Assembly (NCBI RefSeq): GCF_036227605.1
Contig: NZ_CP109487.1
Span: 9,225,001-9,289,000 of the forward strand
Source of the DNA: Streptomyces sp. NBC_01439
Lineage (GTDB): Bacteria > Actinomycetota > Actinomycetes > Streptomycetales > Streptomycetaceae
Length of the DNA: 64,000 bases
Reading direction: 5' to 3'
The translations under genes and the position numbers were made by a program. A model generated the notes under the pieces. The model was not told the DNA's origin. It ran no database searches and saw nothing but the letters and a program-made list of their open reading frames with translations. Of the stretch, positions 44,987-51,429 are shown in pieces (the first letter of the stretch is position 1; each line of letters opens with the position of its first letter).

Positions 44987-45784
44987 ATGACAAGCGGAAT
45001 CCATCCCGGGGGCGGCACCGCGCCGGCCGCCGGCGGAGCGGTCGACCTCACCGGACGGACCGCCCTAGTGACTGGAAGCGGCAGCGGAATCGGCCGGGCC
45101 TGCGCCGTGGCCCTGGCCTCGGCCGGGGCCCGCGTTCACGTGGTGGACCTCGACGCGGACGCGGCCAAGGCCGTGGCGGATGCGACCGGCGGCCACCCGC
45201 ACACGGTCGACGTGGCCGATGCCGCGGCGCTTGCGCGGCTGCCGAAAGACGTGGACATCCTGGTCAACAACGCAGGGTTGCAGCACGTGGCGCCGCTGAC
45301 CGAGTTCCCCCCGGAACGCTTCGAACTGATCCAGCGGGTGATGGTCACCGCACCGTTCCTGCTGCTCCGGCACACCCTCCCGTACATGTACGCCGGTCAT
45401 TGGGGCCGGGTCGTCAACATCTCCAGCGTCCACGGGCTGCGGGCCAGCGCGTACAAATCGGCGTACGTGACGGCAAAGCACGCCCTCGAAGGCCTGAACA
45501 AGGTCACCGCCCTCGAAGCCGCGCCCCACGGAGTGACCAGCAACTGCGTCAACCCCGGCTACGTCCGCACCCCGCTGGTCGAGCACCAGATCGCCTCGCA
45601 GGCTGCCGCCCACGGCATCGCCCCCGAGAGGGTCGTATCCGATGTGCTGCTCACCCGGCCCGCGATCAAGGAGCTGATCGCCCCGGAGGCCGTCGCGGCG
45701 GTCGTGCTCTGGCTGTGCGGCCCCCAGACCGCACAGCTGACCGGGGCTTCCCTGCCGCTCGACGGGGGCTGGACCGCCTCCTGA
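44987..45784 (+). CDS. 3-hydroxybutyrate dehydrogenase-like SDR
   Basis: 265 aa from ATG 44987. Classical short-chain dehydrogenase: NAD motif TGSGSGIGRA (residues 29-38), NNAGLQHVAPL, catalytic Ser in NISSVHGLRAS, YxxxK as SAYVTAKHALEG, and the C-terminal ASLPLDGGWTA. The LQHVAP--EFP and PGYVRTPLVE wording matches 3-hydroxybutyrate dehydrogenases. NAD-dependent oxidation of 3-hydroxybutyrate to acetoacetate is the likely reaction. It sits between a dead 3-oxoacid CoA-transferase and a truncated MFS carrier, so the pathway is no longer complete here. Confidence 0.88.
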   Translation: MTSGIHPGGGTAPAAGGAVDLTGRTALVTGSGSGIGRACAVALASAGARVHVVDLDADAAKAVADATGGHPHTVDVADAAALARLPKDVDILVNNAGLQHVAPLTEFPPERFELIQRVMVTAPFLLLRHTLPYMYAGHWGRVVNISSVHGLRASAYKSAYVTAKHALEGLNKVTALEAAPHGVTSNCVNPGYVRTPLVEHQIASQAAAHGIAPERVVSDVLLTRPAIKELIAPEAVAAVVLWLCGPQTAQLTGASLPLDGGWTAS

Positions 45785-45853
45785 GATCCCGTACCTGACG
45801 CACTTGACACACCTCCCGCACATCCCCATCAACCGAGGAGTGGTCACCCTGCC

Positions 45854-45925
45854 ATGGAATCCCAGTCCCCAGGAGGCGGCATCCGCCGCATCCTGATCGG
45901 CACCACCATCGAGTGGTATGACAAC
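45854..45925 (+). pseudogene. N-terminus of an MHS-type MFS transporter, cut after EWYDN
   Basis: ATG 45854 (GAGGAG upstream) encodes MESQSPGGGIRRILIGTTIE then WYDN, the start of metabolite:H+ symporters of the MHS family (GTTIEWYDxFLYG). After the AAC codon (45923-45925) the sequence is foreign. Position after bdhA suggests a hydroxybutyrate or related carboxylate carrier. Confidence 0.8.
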
Positions 45926-45998
45926 TCATCTGATCGGGGCTATGACCTGTCGTATCCCAGGATTTGTGCGATCGAAGTCAGCACGGAACCAGCACGGG
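45926..45998 (+). mobile_element. end of an unidentified element inserted at the EWYDN codon (copy 1)
   Basis: From TCATCTGATCGGGGCTATG to the motif GTCAGCACGGAACCAGCACG (45977-45996) this 73-bp segment aligns with 51074-51146, which follows the same codon in a different MFS gene. No transposase gene remains alongside. Site-specific elements such as IS110/IS1111-type would behave like this. Confidence 0.6.
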
Positions 45999-46611
45999 TC
46001 AACGGCGCGCCTGCTAGATGCTGACGAAGTGGCTTTCGCGGCGCATGCCACTGGCTCGACTGGCGTATCGGGGCCGACTACGGAGCGTCGCCGATTCCGC
46101 CATCCAAGGTCTTCAGGTGTAGGTGTCCTGAGGTTGTCTCTCGCCCAAGGAAGCGGCGTTGTTCCATGCCCTCGACTGGTGTCTGCAGTGCCTTCGCCTG
46201 GTTCCGAAAGTGTGTGGTCATCGACCAGGTCCCCGCAGCCGCAGCCGCAGTGAGGGGAGGGAGCGTTGGGAGCACCCTGAGCCCGGGCACATCCCTGCAG
46301 GTGTGGGGAGCAGCGGACCCGCGCAGATACGGGCCCCGCTGGTTCGGGGAGCAGGCTTCTTGACCTGTGATCACTGGTCGCTCCCCGACGGCCCCCCCAG
46401 GGCGGATACCGCATGCGTCCGGTCGCCAGGCGCGTAGCTTAGGAGAAGAGCATCCTCCGGAAGATTCGGACGGTCCCCAGTTCGATCTCTGGTCGGTTTG
46501 GCCCATCACCTCACCCGTAGAGCAGCGCTTTGGGACGCGAACCATGTGGTTCTCCGGCCGGAGTTCGGTGTTCTTCCTTGTCGGCGGCCTGGGGGTGGGC
46601 AGGCCGGGTTT
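45999..46611. other. gene-free stretch beyond the element end
   Basis: No coding frame supported. It could be the non-coding body of the inserted element. A tRNA-like string near 46430-46500 was considered and rejected. Confidence 0.35.
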
Positions 46612-47259
46612 TCAGGATCGGCCGGAGTGCAGGAGGCGTCGGGCGAACGCGGAGAGGGCATGGGCGATGCGCTCGTGGGGGATGCCCAGGGTGTTGTGCT
46701 GATGGTGGTAGAGCTGCGGGGCCAAGGGGCCGAGGGCGATGTCGGCGAGCGCGTCGGGGTCCGGGGATCCGCCGGCGATGAGCAGGGTGCGCACATGGAG
46801 GCGCCAGAAGCCGTAGGCGCCGGTGGCGTAGCGGGCGGGCCCGGTTTCCGCGCCCAACGCGAGGGGCAGATGCCGCCGGATCAAGTCCAGGTAGGCGATG
46901 TAGAACGCCGCCAGTCGTTCGGCGGGGGGTGCCCCAGGCCCCAGGGGCGGCGGTCCGTAGATCATCTGCCCCTGTAGCAGGCGTTCGTGCTCGTCCAGGA
47001 GGGCGGTGGCGACGGAGGGCGGGTCGGGGAACGAGCGGTAGAGGGTCGCGCGGCCGACACCCGCGGCCTTCGCGATCTGCTCCATCGTCACGGTGCTCGG
47101 ATCGTGTGCGGTGAAGAGCGCTTCGGCAGCGGAGAGGATCTGTGCGCGATTGCGCACCGCGTCGGCCCGCTGCCGGGGTGCGGTGGCACCTCGGGGTGCC
47201 GCCTGGAGGTCACCGCGGAGGACCACCTGCGGGGCGGGATGCTCGTCGCCGTTGCTCAT
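46612..47259 (-). CDS. TetR-family repressor of the adjacent DMT transporter
   Basis: 215 aa from ATG 47259 (AGGTG upstream). Helix-turn-helix TMEQIAKAAGVGRATLYRSF at about residues 60-79, preceded by RNRAQILSAAEALFTAH; the rest is the variable ligand domain. Divergent from the transporter gene; two inverted repeats in the 107-bp gap are the likely operators. Ligand unknown, probably a transporter substrate. Confidence 0.92.
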   Translation of the reverse strand: MSNGDEHPAPQVVLRGDLQAAPRGATAPRQRADAVRNRAQILSAAEALFTAHDPSTVTMEQIAKAAGVGRATLYRSFPDPPSVATALLDEHERLLQGQMIYGPPPLGPGAPPAERLAAFYIAYLDLIRRHLPLALGAETGPARYATGAYGFWRLHVRTLLIAGGSPDPDALADIALGPLAPQLYHHQHNTLGIPHERIAHALSAFARRLLHSGRS

Positions 47260-47283
47260 GCAGGTCACCTTACTTCCCAGAAA

Positions 47284-47310
47284 CCTAAGTGGACAGCTTG
47301 TCCGCTTAGG
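47284..47310. promoter_or_regulatory. TetR-type operator
   Basis: Arms CCTAAGTGGACA (47284-47295) and TGTCCGCTTAGG (47299-47310) are inverted with one mismatch around GCT. The GGACA/TGTCC core is typical of TetR operators. Lies 25 bp upstream of the repressor start. Confidence 0.8.
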
Positions 47311-47322
47311 AGCCTCTGGACT

Positions 47323-47353
47323 ACATTAAATGAGACGAGCGTCCGTTTAATGT
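47323..47353. promoter_or_regulatory. second inverted repeat in the tetR-DMT gap
   Basis: ACATTAAA (47323-47330) and TTTAATGT (47346-47353) are perfect inverted arms; between them GACGAGCGTC repeats the GAC/GTC core. It covers the region where the transporter promoter should be, 14 bp before its ATG, so repressor binding would block the transporter. Confidence 0.6.
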
Positions 47354-47366
47354 GGGGGAGAACGAG

Positions 47367-48305
47367 ATGAACGCTGCGCTGCTCACGGCAGCCCTCCTGG
47401 TGGGGTGCCTCCTGGCCGTCCAGGCGTCGGTCAACCTGCAACTGAACAAGGCTGTGGGAACCCCTTACGGCGCCTCCACGGTCCAACTGGGCGTGGCCAC
47501 CGGACTCCTGGTGGTCCTGGCGGCACTAACCGGGGCGCTCGGCGCGCTCGGGAAGCTCCCCGGCGTCGAGTGGTGGCACCTGCTGGGCGGCCTGGCGAGC
47601 CCCCTCTACATCACCAGCGGCATACTGCTCTTCCCCCGGCTGGGGGCCCTGGCCTCGGTCGGGCTGTTCGTCACGGGGCAGATGTTCTCCTCCTTGGTCC
47701 TCGACTTGGGCGGCCTCCTCGGGCTGGAGAAGAAGGGCCTGAGCCCGGGCGTCGCTCTCGGCGCCCTCGCGGTCCTCGCGGGCATCATCGTGATCATCCG
47801 AGGGCAGCGGGCGACCGCCCCGCCCGGAGCCCCGACGACGTCGGGCCCGGGCCGGATCGGATGGATCGTCCTCGGCATCGTCGCCGGCGGTGTGCTCCCG
47901 GTTCAGGGCGCGGTCAACGCCGAGCTCCGGCATGGTCTGGGCGCCCCGATCGCGGTGGCGGCCTTCAGCTTCACGGTGGCCACGCTCACCATCACCGTCG
48001 TCCTGCTGGTGCTGCGCCTGACGGGCAAGACCCCCAGGCCGCAGCTGGCCCCGCTGAAGGCGATGCCCTGGTGGGGCTGGCTCGGCGGAGCCTGCGCCGC
48101 GGGCTACGTCACCGGCACGTTCTTGCTGATCCCCGAGATCGGCGCTGCCGTGACCGTCGGGCTGACCGTGACCGGCCAGCAGCTGACCTCCGCCCTGATC
48201 GATCACCGGGGCATGTTCCGGCTGCCGACCCGGGTGCTGAGCGTGCCGCGTCTGACGGGACTCGGCCTGCTGCTCGCCGGATCGCTGGCCATCCAACTCG
48301 TCTGA
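47367..48305 (+). CDS. DMT-superfamily transporter (YdcZ-type, tandem halves)
   Basis: 312 aa from ATG 47367 (GGGGGAG upstream). Ten hydrophobic helices arranged as two homologous halves, each containing the sequence type VQASVNLQLNKAVGTPYGAS / VQGAVNAELRHGLGAPIAVA and the later VGLFVTGQMFSSLVLD / VGLTVTGQQLTSALID. This is the DMT_YdcZ family of exporters. Induction through the divergent TetR repressor is predicted. Substrate unknown. Confidence 0.93.
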   Translation: MNAALLTAALLVGCLLAVQASVNLQLNKAVGTPYGASTVQLGVATGLLVVLAALTGALGALGKLPGVEWWHLLGGLASPLYITSGILLFPRLGALASVGLFVTGQMFSSLVLDLGGLLGLEKKGLSPGVALGALAVLAGIIVIIRGQRATAPPGAPTTSGPGRIGWIVLGIVAGGVLPVQGAVNAELRHGLGAPIAVAAFSFTVATLTITVVLLVLRLTGKTPRPQLAPLKAMPWWGWLGGACAAGYVTGTFLLIPEIGAAVTVGLTVTGQQLTSALIDHRGMFRLPTRVLSVPRLTGLGLLLAGSLAIQLV

Positions 48306-48345
48306 GCTCGCGCTCGTACGACCCTGAGAGAGAAGACTGTTCCTG

Positions 48346-49146
48346 TTGGAGACCTACGCCGTAGGGCCCGAACTGCACGCCCTGCCCTCTGCGCTGCCGA
48401 TACCCGACTCAGGCCTGCAACCGGTCAACGCCTACCTGCTGCGCGGTGAGCAGCCGATGCTGGTGGACGCCGGTATGCCCGTGGACCGGGACGCGTTCGA
48501 AGAGGCCCTGTGGTCCCTGGTGGACCCCGCCGATCTGCGGTGGATCGCCATCACCCATGACGACCGGGACCACACCGGGAGCCTGATGCGGATACTCGAT
48601 CGCGCTCCCGGTGCCAAGGTCGTCACGAACGGGATATCACTCACCCGACTGTCCGAGGAATTCGAGATCCCGCGTGGGCGGGTCGTGACGGTGAACTCCG
48701 GGAGCCGGTTATCGATCGGTGACCGGACTGTGAGCTTCCACCGGCCGCCCACGTTCGACTCGCCGGGCACGCTCGCGGTATTCGACCACGAGGCCGGCAC
48801 GCTCTTCAGTTCGGACAGTTTCGGCACCGTCCTGCCTGAAACCGTGCAGCACGTCGGTGACGCCGACGCCAAGGAATTCTTCGAAGGCTTCGACGTCCTG
48901 AACCGGGCGATCGCCCCGTGGACGGCCCTCGTCGACGCGGAGAAGTTCCTCCGCACCGTCCAGGCGGTGTCCTCCCTCTCCCCGGCCCGACTGCTGTCCG
49001 CCCACGGGCCGACGGTGGAGGGCCGGATGGTCGCCTCCCTGATGGAGGCTATGGCCCGCATTCCGTTCCTGCCGGCATGGCTCCCGGGCGCGGACGTCGA
49101 CCTCGAAGCCGCCTTGGACGCGCACGGTGGCCGGGCCGCCCCCTGA
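48346..49146 (+). CDS. MBL-fold metallo-hydrolase
   Basis: 266 aa from TTG 48346 (41 bp after the transporter stop, so possibly cotranscribed). The metal-site motif reads ITHDDRDHTGSL (His-x-Asp-x-Asp-His, with Asp in place of the second His, as in flavodiiron-like and related oxidoreductase-type MBL proteins), later DHEAGTLFSSDSFG and SAHGPTVEG supply Asp and His ligands. The reaction is unknown; hydrolase or redox role. Confidence 0.82.
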   Translation: METYAVGPELHALPSALPIPDSGLQPVNAYLLRGEQPMLVDAGMPVDRDAFEEALWSLVDPADLRWIAITHDDRDHTGSLMRILDRAPGAKVVTNGISLTRLSEEFEIPRGRVVTVNSGSRLSIGDRTVSFHRPPTFDSPGTLAVFDHEAGTLFSSDSFGTVLPETVQHVGDADAKEFFEGFDVLNRAIAPWTALVDAEKFLRTVQAVSSLSPARLLSAHGPTVEGRMVASLMEAMARIPFLPAWLPGADVDLEAALDAHGGRAAP

Positions 49147-49220
49147 CTGTCCGGGCACTCGACTCTCAGCCACCGTCGAGCTCTCGAACCTCAGCGACTG
49201 CTGAGCCCTGAATCACCACT

Positions 49221-49252
49221 CCATCACTCCATCACTCCATCACTCCACCATT
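49221..49252. repeat. short tandem repeat of an 8-bp unit
   Basis: CCATCACT three times in tandem, followed by the variant CCACCATT, just upstream of the DsbA-like gene. Copy number may vary. Confidence 0.85.
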
Positions 49253-49276
49253 CCTTGAAACCCCTCGGAGCCACCG

Positions 49277-49969
49277 TTGACCACCGCATCCCTGACACCG
49301 CCGCCGGGCATCATCACCGTCTTCTCGGACATCTGGTGTTCGTTCGCACACATCGCCATCCACCGTCTGCACGCCACGCGCAAGCGGCTCGGACTCGAGA
49401 CCCAGGTCGGCTTCGACCTGCGGGCCTTCCCCCTTGAGCTCCTCAACGACGCGCCCAGCCCCCGCCCCGGAACCGACAGCGAGGTGGGCCGGATGGCCAG
49501 CCTGGAGCCGGCGGCCGGCTGGCAGCTCTGGCAGGCCAAGGACTGGCTCTATCCCTCCACCATGCTGCCCGCGCTGGAGGCGGTCCAGGCCGCCAAGTTG
49601 CAGTCCCTTGCGGCGTCCGAACAGCTCGACCTCGGCCTGCGGAAGGCGTTCTGGGCCGAGTCGCGGTCCGTCAGTCACCGCAAGGTCATCCTGGACGTGG
49701 CCGCGGAGACCGGCGTCGTCGACGTGACGGCGCTGGCGGAGGCCCTGGACGACGGCCGAGCCCGCAGCAACCTCTCCGGCCAGACCGCGGTCGCCCGTAC
49801 CGAGGCGGTCAGTTGCAGCCCGCACCTGTTCCTGCCCGACGGCAGCGACTGGGCCAACCCCGGGATCGACGTACGCTGGGAAGGCTCCTACGGCGTCGGC
49901 TTTCCGGTGATCGAATCCGACGACCCGACGATCTACGAGGACCTTCTCCTGACGACTGCCACGGGCTGA
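49277..49969 (+). CDS. DsbA/FrnE-family thioredoxin-fold protein
   Basis: 230 aa from TTG 49277 with GGAG upstream. The thioredoxin-like start [20 protein letters not shown] has a WCSF site in place of CxxC, so a single Cys (as in FrnE-like/HCCA-isomerase-type members), followed by the helical insertion ([20 protein letters not shown]) and the return strands [18 protein letters not shown]. Cytoplasmic, no signal peptide. Probably an oxidoreductase or isomerase with unknown substrate. Confidence 0.8.
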
Positions 49970-50019
49970 CACTGCGGCCGGAGTCTCAGTGACTTGCATG
50001 GTCAACGGCCTGGAGGTGG

Positions 50020-50327
50020 GGAGCGTAGTGGGTGTGCGGCGGTCGCGGGACGGTCATGCCGGGCGAACCGAGAACTGTCAGATCGGCGTCCTCGCCGCCT
50101 ACGCCACCACCGTGCGCGGCCACGCTCTGGTCGACCGCGAGCTCTACCTGCCCAAGCCCTGGACCGAAGACCGTGAGCGCGGCCGCGCCGACGGATCCAC
50201 GAGGGCGGCCCCGCCGATGTTGCCGCGCAGGCCCTGTACGGCATCGACGGGCCTGCTCTCGGTCCTCGCCGACGAAATCAGCCGGTACGTCAGGCAGAGC
50301 CTGAGCGCTTCGCCGGATGCGGCGTGA
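50020..50327 (+). pseudogene. IS701-type transposase fragment
   Basis: The plus strand reads [20 protein letters not shown] then [20 protein letters not shown] and [11 protein letters not shown], the conserved central block of IS701/DDE_5 transposases ([17 protein letters not shown]...RALIDRELYLPxSWT). Only about 50 residues remain and the rest to 50327 is unrelated. Confidence 0.75.
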
Positions 50328-50383
50328 GGCACGCCCCGCCGCACCACCGCTTGCCCCTATCGACCCTTGAGCAAGGACATCTG

Positions 50384-50570
50384 ATGCGTTACACGACCTT
50401 CGGACACCGGACCGGCCTGCGTGTGTCCTAGTACGCGCTCGGCACGGCGAACTTCTGCACCCGCTGGGGTGCCCGCGGGCAGCATCCAGGCCTGACGGAT
50501 TCGGTCTTCACGCGCGAGACCGAGCTGAGCCGGCCGCTCGAGTTCGAGGCCGTGGTCCAAGCGGCCTGAC
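50384..50570 (+). pseudogene. aldo/keto-reductase N-terminus with a nonsense codon
   Basis: ATG 50384 encodes MRYTTFGHRTGLRVS, then TAG (50429-50431) where relatives have Glu, then YALGTANFCTRWG, the family start VSEYALGTANFGTRWG. After about 50470 similarity is lost. GAG to TAG plus truncation. Confidence 0.75.
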
Positions 50571-50681
50571 GCCCGGTGGCGGGACCGCGGTGCGACCGGT
50601 CTCGCCAGGCCGGCCGCATCCCCGGACTGGCAGTGCCAAGGATCCGGTCCGCCCGTGAATAGCCGAGTTCAACGCTGCGTA

Positions 50682-50776
50682 GTCAGCACCGAACGAGCAC
50701 GGGACGACGAGTCGCCAGAGGTGCTGACAAGGGCTTTGGGGTCAGCGCCGAACCAGCACGGGAGTCAGCATCGGGG
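50682..50776 (+). repeat. cluster of the 22-bp motif also found at the element ends
   Basis: GTCAGCACCGAACGAGCACG (50682 on), GTCAGCGCCGAACCAGCACG (50741 on) and a partial GTCAGCATCGGGG (50764 on), plus an inverted GTGCTGAC at 50721-50728. The same motif occurs at 45977 and 51125, inside the two element copies. Confidence 0.7.
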
Positions 50777-50931
50777 TGCAAAACAGGCTGATCCACGCTT
50801 TGAGGCAGGAGTCGGTTAGGTGTTCCGGAAGCCTTCAAGGTGTCCAAGGCAGCGGCGTGGTGGTTGGGTACACAAGGTGGTGCCTGAATGTGATGTCCCG
50901 CCACATATGTTGCCGACCTGCGGGCTTCTAC

Positions 50932-50945
50932 GGTGTGGCCACACC
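50932..50945. promoter_or_regulatory. 14-bp perfect palindrome upstream of the second MFS relic
   Basis: GGTGTGGCCACACC, 32 bp before ATG 50978. Likely the operator of the former transporter gene; GntR/IclR-type regulators use such sites, but the regulator is not identified. Confidence 0.5.
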
Positions 50946-50977
50946 AAACGTCCCCGCAGCCCCCGGAAGTGGTGCAC

Positions 50978-51073
50978 ATGACCTCCCCCGCAACAGCCGC
51001 ACCATCGTCAACCGGAATTCGCAGAATCGTCGCCGCCAGCCTCATCGGGACCACCATCGAGTGGTACGACAAC
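50978..51073 (+). pseudogene. N-terminus of a second MHS-type MFS transporter, cut at the same codon
   Basis: ATG 50978 encodes MTSPATAAPSSTGIRRIVAA then SLIGTTIEWYDN, with an N-terminus different from the first copy. After AAC (51071-51073) the foreign sequence TCATCAGACCAGAGCTAGGA begins. A paralogous gene interrupted at the same position. Confidence 0.8.
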
Positions 51074-51146
51074 TCATCAGACCAGAGCTAGGACCTGCAG
51101 ATTTCCCGCCGCTACCCCTCCGAAGTCAGCACCGAACCAGCATCGG
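51074..51146 (+). mobile_element. end of the unidentified element at the EWYDN codon (copy 2)
   Basis: Aligns with 45926-45998 from TCATC..GA.C.G.GCTA.GACCTG to CGAAGTCAGCACCGAACCAG (51122-51141). Divergence between copies shows two old, independent insertions or one element type with drift. The sequence beyond 51146 differs from copy 1. Confidence 0.6.
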
Positions 51147-51429
51147 AGAATCTCGCGTGGGCAGACGAACGAGGATGTACACGTTCCGCCTGGCGGCGAC
51201 GTTGAGTCGAATCCCGGAGCCGGTCACGTACCGTAGCGCGCTACCCCACTACCGAGCTGGTGCTTGGTGGCCCCGCAGCTCGAAGTCAACGGGCTCGGCG
51301 ATGGTGGCGGCGATCGAGTCTTGGGCGCCTCCCGCGCGGGCGACTGACCGCCCCGAATCGTTCTACCCTCGCAGCCCCATCCCCGCAGGCGCGCGGTGGC
51401 AAGGACATGTCCGTCCGGCGGCGTCTCTT
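51147..51429. other. gene-free stretch
   Basis: No supported feature. Confidence 0.3.

Follow-up and report, generated by a model that had tools for sequence, protein, structure and literature searches.

Two broken transporter genes at one recurrent junction

What kind of event breaks off two dissimilar transporter genes at the same codon and continues both with the same DNA? The question is raised by a stretch of 64,000 nucleotides of the Streptomyces sp. NBC_01439 chromosome (the window; positions 9225001–9289000 of 9578283 bp). Two N-termini of MHS-type transporters, starting at 45854 and 50978, are unlike each other, converge in ACCACCATCGAGTGGTAYGAC and then run on into homologous sequence; the MHS 5′ ends are thus broken at the identical codon and followed by about 76 bp of related sequence (window 45854–45998 and 50978–51146). 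A third copy of the junction is found at genome position 9366684, 91 kb beyond the window pair. Very likely, a tyrosine integrase has placed genomic islands into the 5′ part of an MHS gene, and the junctions are their attachment sites.

Alignment of the two junctions shows dissimilar upstream DNA, a near-identical ACCACCATCGAGTGGTAYGACAACTCATC block, GA.C.G.GCTA.GACCTG and GTCAGCACxGAACCAGCA, after which the sequences diverge again. With up to three mismatches, the core pattern has two matches in the window versus 0.00 expected from 100 shuffles, and GTCAGCACNGAACCAGCA has four versus 0.29 expected. In intact MHS genes the codon following GTTIEWYD encodes F (motif GTTIEWYDFFLYG). The AAC read as N in the broken copies is therefore attributed to island DNA, and the junctions fall at 45922|45923 and 51070|51071. 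The following features define them:

45854–45922, + strand: native MHS 5′ end, severed by the island at ...GTTIEWYD; left half of attL
45905–45922, + strand: core ACCATCGAGTGGTATGAC, common to attL, attR and attB by sequence comparison
45923–45998, + strand: left end of E1, the first island: AACTCATCTGATCGGGGCTATGACCTG ... arm GTCAGCACGGAACCAGCACGGG, the latter at 45977–45998
50978–51070, + strand: island-borne replacement MHS 5′ end of 31 codons with the core at 51053–51070; right end of E1
51071–51146, + strand: left end of island E2 (arm at 51125–51146), which extends past the window

An earlier, sequence-only reading of this DNA had recognised both junctions, albeit with borders at 45925|45926 and 51073|51074 that have been moved here. 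Its view that the N-termini differ upstream and do not represent one duplicated block agrees with the alignment, which diverges on both sides, one N-terminus being native and the other island-borne. Likewise, its proposal of an element that inserts site-specifically at the DNA for a conserved motif (GTTIEWYD) is borne out. That reading did not mention the two arm repeats that precede the second N-terminus (50682 and 50741).

An array of islands and its empty counterpart

The first N-terminus is the chromosome's own, belonging to an SDR–MHS operon, whereas the right end of E1 brings the second, a replacement 5′ end. This difference in origin explains why the two are unlike. E1 spans 45923–51070, and E2 begins at 51071, directly abutting the right end of E1. 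Together with an island running from genome position 9366724 to an intact MHS gene (9525939–9527336), they account for 255 kb of islands between the outer junctions. The islands split the native operon, and the last right end of the array rebuilds the intact MHS gene. The outer flanks are the SDR gene, ending at window position 45784 (9270784), and a regulator frame starting at 9527398. The DNA preceding the intact MHS gene, compared by eye, is similar to window 50682–51070 along its whole length.

In the island-free relative G002, an SDR gene (74% identical to that of the window), an MHS gene (80% to the intact gene here) and the regulator (62%) are contiguous. The search for an empty site in an MHS gene, suggested in the earlier reading, thus returned an uninterrupted SDR–MHS–regulator arrangement. 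The same comparison bears on the alternative which that reading had set against its own proposal, namely that both loci are copies of one ancestral, duplicated transporter pseudogene. This would be in line with the nearly identical N-termini of the second and third (9366684) junctions. It is, however, refuted by the empty site in G002, and is further contradicted by the native operon context of the first N-terminus as opposed to the island-borne second one, by the divergence on both junction sides and by the presence of the same junction in other Streptomyces. Practically no weight is left for this explanation.

Structure of the island ends

Each left end consists of the core, AACTCATC... and an arm; each right end consists of a GAGTTCAACGCTGCGTA block, arms, an upstream segment, the N-terminus and the core. 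The arm repeat, GTCAGCACNGAACCAGCACGG, has a length of 22 bp. It follows each of the three left junctions and recurs at 50682, 50741, 9295917, 9525653 and 9525709, with the right-end arms located about 390 bp upstream of the core. An 18-base form of the arm (≤2 mismatches) was found at nine genomic places, each on the + strand and eight of them within 9.27–9.53 Mb, versus one place for the reversed control. The peptide ending EFNAA* just before the right-end arms was considered as an integrase C-terminus and rejected, as the frames upstream of it are unrelated and the integrase tail ends further upstream.

Among 392 Streptomyces genomes, the left-end pattern occurs at 58 places in 50 genomes (backward control, seven places). 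Thirty of these loci were checked: the MHS core is present at the exact offset in 23, the arm in 23, and both in 22. A further scan listed at least 117 stretches, several of which come from unrelated bacteria and are plain chance matches. Among these listed matches, 37 are core-bearing left ends, and the arm starts 51 bp after the AAC in 32 of them (48, 50, 50, 50 and 59 bp in the remaining five). An inverted arm pair follows in 13/37, compared to 10/2000 random spots. The islands range from 5 to about 190 kb; SPB162, with both ends and an intact integrase, measures about 178 kb.

Right ends were examined in loci preselected for right-end matches, plus L004, L222 and L223, with the window's own hybrid excluded. 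A core is present at 24 of the 26 sites: four are tandem hybrids leading into the next left end, and 20 continue into MHS. Eighteen of these 20 continuations are full length (429–455 residues from the core on), with an arm-to-core distance of 387–405 bp in the 18.

Based on these structures, the integrase would probably act on a circular island, recombining its core with the attB in the MHS gene, much as SXT does at prfC, to which SXT supplies a new 5′ end. The integration point may be located inside or beside ATCGAGTGGTACGAC. The left end of the island (AACTCATC...GACCTG...GTCAGCACNGAACCAGCACGG) would be fused to the first codons of the gene, whereas the right end with its arms, to which the integrase may bind, would bring in a new 5′ coding end about 390 bp on. 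Fusion of the latter to the remainder of the gene would restore the transporter frame; the sequence itself shows the remaining MHS codons joined to an island 5′ segment. Since the target is re-created at every right end, a further island could land there, which would give rise to tandem arrays.

The integrase

Of 17 genome matches to PF00589, two are remnants, one (9295459–9295707) to the left of the right-end arm at 9295917 and the other (9525270–9525476) to the left of that at 9525653. Intact relatives of 427–433 residues adjoin the same junction type in other Streptomyces. In L109, L081 and L114 an intact integrase is found by the left end, its C-terminus 251–268 bp from the arm, and Pfam assigns the L221 protein (the L109 gene) and that of L081 to phage integrases with central and SAM-like domains (PF00589). 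Six full-length members share R218, R356, H379 and Y389 (L221 numbering), which we take to be catalytic positions. The islands hence combine what characterises a tyrosine-integrase genomic island: an integrase beside an attachment end, intact in L109, L081 and L114 and present as remnants here, attL and attR with a core in common, and a relative with an empty attB. Serine recombinases were considered and rejected, with five resolvase matches genome-wide and none at 9.27–9.53 Mb.

An integrase is found within 1.5 kb of three of 36 MHS left ends. Its presence was judged from resemblance to 12 query integrases; divergent or distant ones may have escaped detection. In some islands (L109, L081, L114, L026) the integrase or its remnant sits at the left end, in others (L172, L173, L099, L088) at the right end. 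In the islands looked at, its C-terminus faces the nearer arms.

Degenerate prophages for which the MHS gene serves as attB would equally carry a tyrosine integrase with Pfam phage-integrase domains. The 745 matching phage records, however, are all below 60% identity (best listed, 29%), and the arm motif gave a single match to a viral contig, without a recognisable island end. This comparison covered the integrase and the arm. A viral origin was rejected on account of that lone contig match, and a prophage descent is considered very unlikely.

Several observations weigh against assigning the junctions to integrase-borne islands. Within the array, E1 holds no intact integrase and its G+C content (68.2%) equals that of the flank (68.1–68.6%), so that a foreign G+C signature for E1 was rejected. 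E2 appears rearranged: no MHS 5′ end comes after its right end (9295900–9295938), and about 71 kb away an N-terminus (9366684) is devoid of arms. Only the empty site of G002 was compared on both flanks. Elsewhere, a core is missing within 700 bp at two of the 26 right-end sites (L196, and one site in L194), two of the 20 MHS genes after right ends are broken (L195, L233), and L235 (G004:C5) and L236 (G012, near 3314423) have a right end and an intact MHS gene with no left end listed nearby. Regarding the enzyme, the HxxR histidine is replaced by Leu in L081 and L114 (position 353 of L221), full-length matches of at least 60% identity occur in only 4/392 Streptomyces genomes (G016, G246, G320, G220), as against 50 bearing the left-end pattern, and the intact integrases L237 and L238 lack a recognisable end within their loci of about 4.3 kb. 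Finally, past excision, a circular form and transfer of the islands, like the exact point of strand exchange, are inferred from sequence.

Island E1 and the cargo of its relatives

The remaining features of E1 and its left flank are as follows:

44987–45784, + strand: SDR gene, native left flank of the islands (adh_short, 1.3e-43); directly precedes the MHS gene in island-free G002
46612–47268, − strand: TetR-family regulator, E1 cargo (TetR_N, 5.2e-12)
47364–48305, + strand: YdcZ-type exporter, E1 cargo (DMT_YdcZ, 1.2e-59)
48346–49146, + strand: metallo-beta-lactamase-fold protein of the ODP type, E1 cargo (ODP, 1.2e-13)
49277–49969, + strand: DsbA-like protein, E1 cargo (DSBA, 1.6e-10)
50471–50566, + strand: tyrosine integrase remnant, last ~32 codons (78% identity over 32 residues to the integrase tail at genome position 9525270)
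50665–50689, + strand: conserved right-end block GAGTTCAACGCTGCGTAGTCAGCAC, non-coding, overlapping the first arm
50682–50703, + strand: right-end arm repeat 1
50741–50762, + strand: right-end arm repeat 2
50763–50977, + strand: island-borne stretch upstream of the N-terminus, putative promoter for the rebuilt MHS gene; the same segment precedes the intact MHS gene in L004

Near the left end, E1 46067–46330 has a diverged copy at genome position 9431900 (L005), 161 kb on, with a 32-bp match at 94%; the longer likeness was judged by eye.

The sequence-only reading had suggested an IS110/IS1111-type element. Such an element, or another transposase-borne one recognising the motif DNA, possibly guided by RNA, would account for same-orientation insertion at a single conserved DNA motif. 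Conversely, the four E1 proteins scanned include no transposase, and hence no DEDD transposase such as characterises the short IS110/IS1111 elements. The islands, of the sizes given above, go instead with tyrosine-integrase genes or remnants at their ends, and the region 45800–51400 gave no Rfam match at E up to 1. The RNA guide was rejected on the latter ground, and we assign next to no probability to a transposase. A tRNA target was likewise rejected, as no tRNA is located within the window.

A cis-mobilizable element (CIME) is devoid of integration and transfer genes and keeps attL and attR, and a new element can integrate in its attR, as described in the accessible part of PMC5704250. E1 keeps attL and attR, retains a 32-residue remnant of an integrase and shows no transfer gene among the four proteins scanned. 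It matches what defines a CIME, and the array agrees with accretion. Holding only an integrase remnant, E1 is described as a CIME-like passenger that would now be movable only by an integrase acting in trans.

The islands could also be decayed self-transmissible elements, i.e. integrative and conjugative elements (ICEs) or their actinomycete form (AICEs), with former conjugation genes of their own, as opposed to cargo islands that were always moved by a helper. The integrase is of the phage/ICE type, and decay of ICEs and integrative and mobilizable elements to CIMEs, with accretion, is covered in the same accessible text (PMC5704250). On the other hand, the four E1 proteins contain no transfer gene, the larger islands not having been scanned for traB, relaxase or rep. 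Such an origin is considered rather unlikely.

Cargo proteins of sister islands were compared with PADLOC in two sets, with one L192 protein counted in both. Of ten hand-picked proteins (L081, L192, L194, L202, L222), seven matched, one of them weakly (PDC-S69, L194). The others are AbiU (L081), GajA- and GajB-like proteins (L194), LmuA and LmuB (L222) and pPIWI (L202); two proteins of L202 and one of L192 were without a match. No match was obtained for ten large proteins from L192, L193, L195–L198, L200 and L201, one of which is an acetolactate synthase. Phage defence as a general island property was rejected on this result, and it is regarded as cargo of some islands only, others bringing metabolic genes. 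The loci at or beside the MHS site are L081:3450–5189 (AbiU), L194:3548–7374 (Gabija-like), L222:1707–5390 (Lamassu) and L202:9343–11391 (pPIWI). L114 encodes a protein with the same first residues as the AbiU of L081.

Relation to known elements

The islands resemble the SXT/R391 ICEs at prfC in their tyrosine integrase, the 5′ end of a protein gene as target and tandem arrays, as far as the accessible texts of PMC2791158 and PMC4489591 describe them. They differ in integrase and host group, in targeting an MHS transporter gene, and in that no conjugation genes were seen among the four E1 proteins. SXT/R391 elements are defined by an Int of the SXT family and by insertion in prfC, and the latter is not the target here. 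CIMEs share the retention of both ends, whereas the target differs and E1 retains a short integrase remnant. Within Streptomyces, the available description of PAISt (Streptomyces turgidiscabies) likewise tells of a large island, site-specific at a protein-coding gene, that excises in modules; its site is an 8-bp palindrome at the bacA 3′ end. AICEs such as pSAM2 integrate site-specifically by an integrase (PMC3218068, as far as its accessible text goes), and AICE accretion at a Streptomyces tRNA-Arg gene is described in the accessible part of PMC9513070. AICEs mostly target tRNA genes and carry TraB and Rep, neither of which turned up in the scan of four E1 proteins. In the open literature searched, no description of the site or the island family was found, and the arm letters appear in no paper text there. 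The islands thus represent a known kind of element and, as far as that literature shows, a new family and site.

The arm module at other genes

Among the matches listed in the further scan, ACCTGC starts 31–32 bp before the arm in 32 of the 37 MHS left ends and at 15 of 58 other places (elsewhere within 110 bp in two and three, respectively). These 58 were classed as neither MHS left ends nor right ends and still contain right-end first arms and chance matches. Of the 15, L061 represents an MHS-type left end whose core is lost. Beside arm and ACCTGC, the neighbouring frame is IMPDH-like in L053, L094, L115, L126 and L128, a metallophosphatase that we take to be SbcD-like in L121 and L127, a TerD gene in L131, a HAD hydrolase in L055, and one further unnamed gene in L070, L075, L101, L133 and L151; Pfam was run on the target frames of L128, L127, L131 and L055. 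Integrase similarity within 1.5 kb was detected at 6/14 of the ACCTGC-bearing places versus 2/44 of the others, both of the latter (L088, L099) being MHS-island right ends. Over the full length, the L070, L131 and L133 integrases are 31–32% identical to the MHS integrase.

It is quite possible, if slightly short of probable, that ACCTGC, a spacing of 25–26 bp and GTCAGCACNGAACCAGCACGG form a portable arm of a Streptomyces tyrosine-integrase superfamily, in which the arms are fixed and the core is re-aimed at the 5′ ends of MHS, IMPDH-like and SbcD-like genes and at the 3′ ends of TerD and HAD-hydrolase genes. As the targets were read from flanking frames and not from empty sites, the module at other genes is treated as a lead. 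Many islands carry ends without a nearby integrase, so that one integrase may move several islands in trans, defence islands included.

In summary, a recurrent landing site for acquired DNA is named in Streptomyces, and the sequence tags for both ends make island borders readable from genomes. What most merits follow-up is the arm shared by islands with differing targets: if true, integrase retargeting could be tested directly, and the enzyme might come to serve as a cloning tool.

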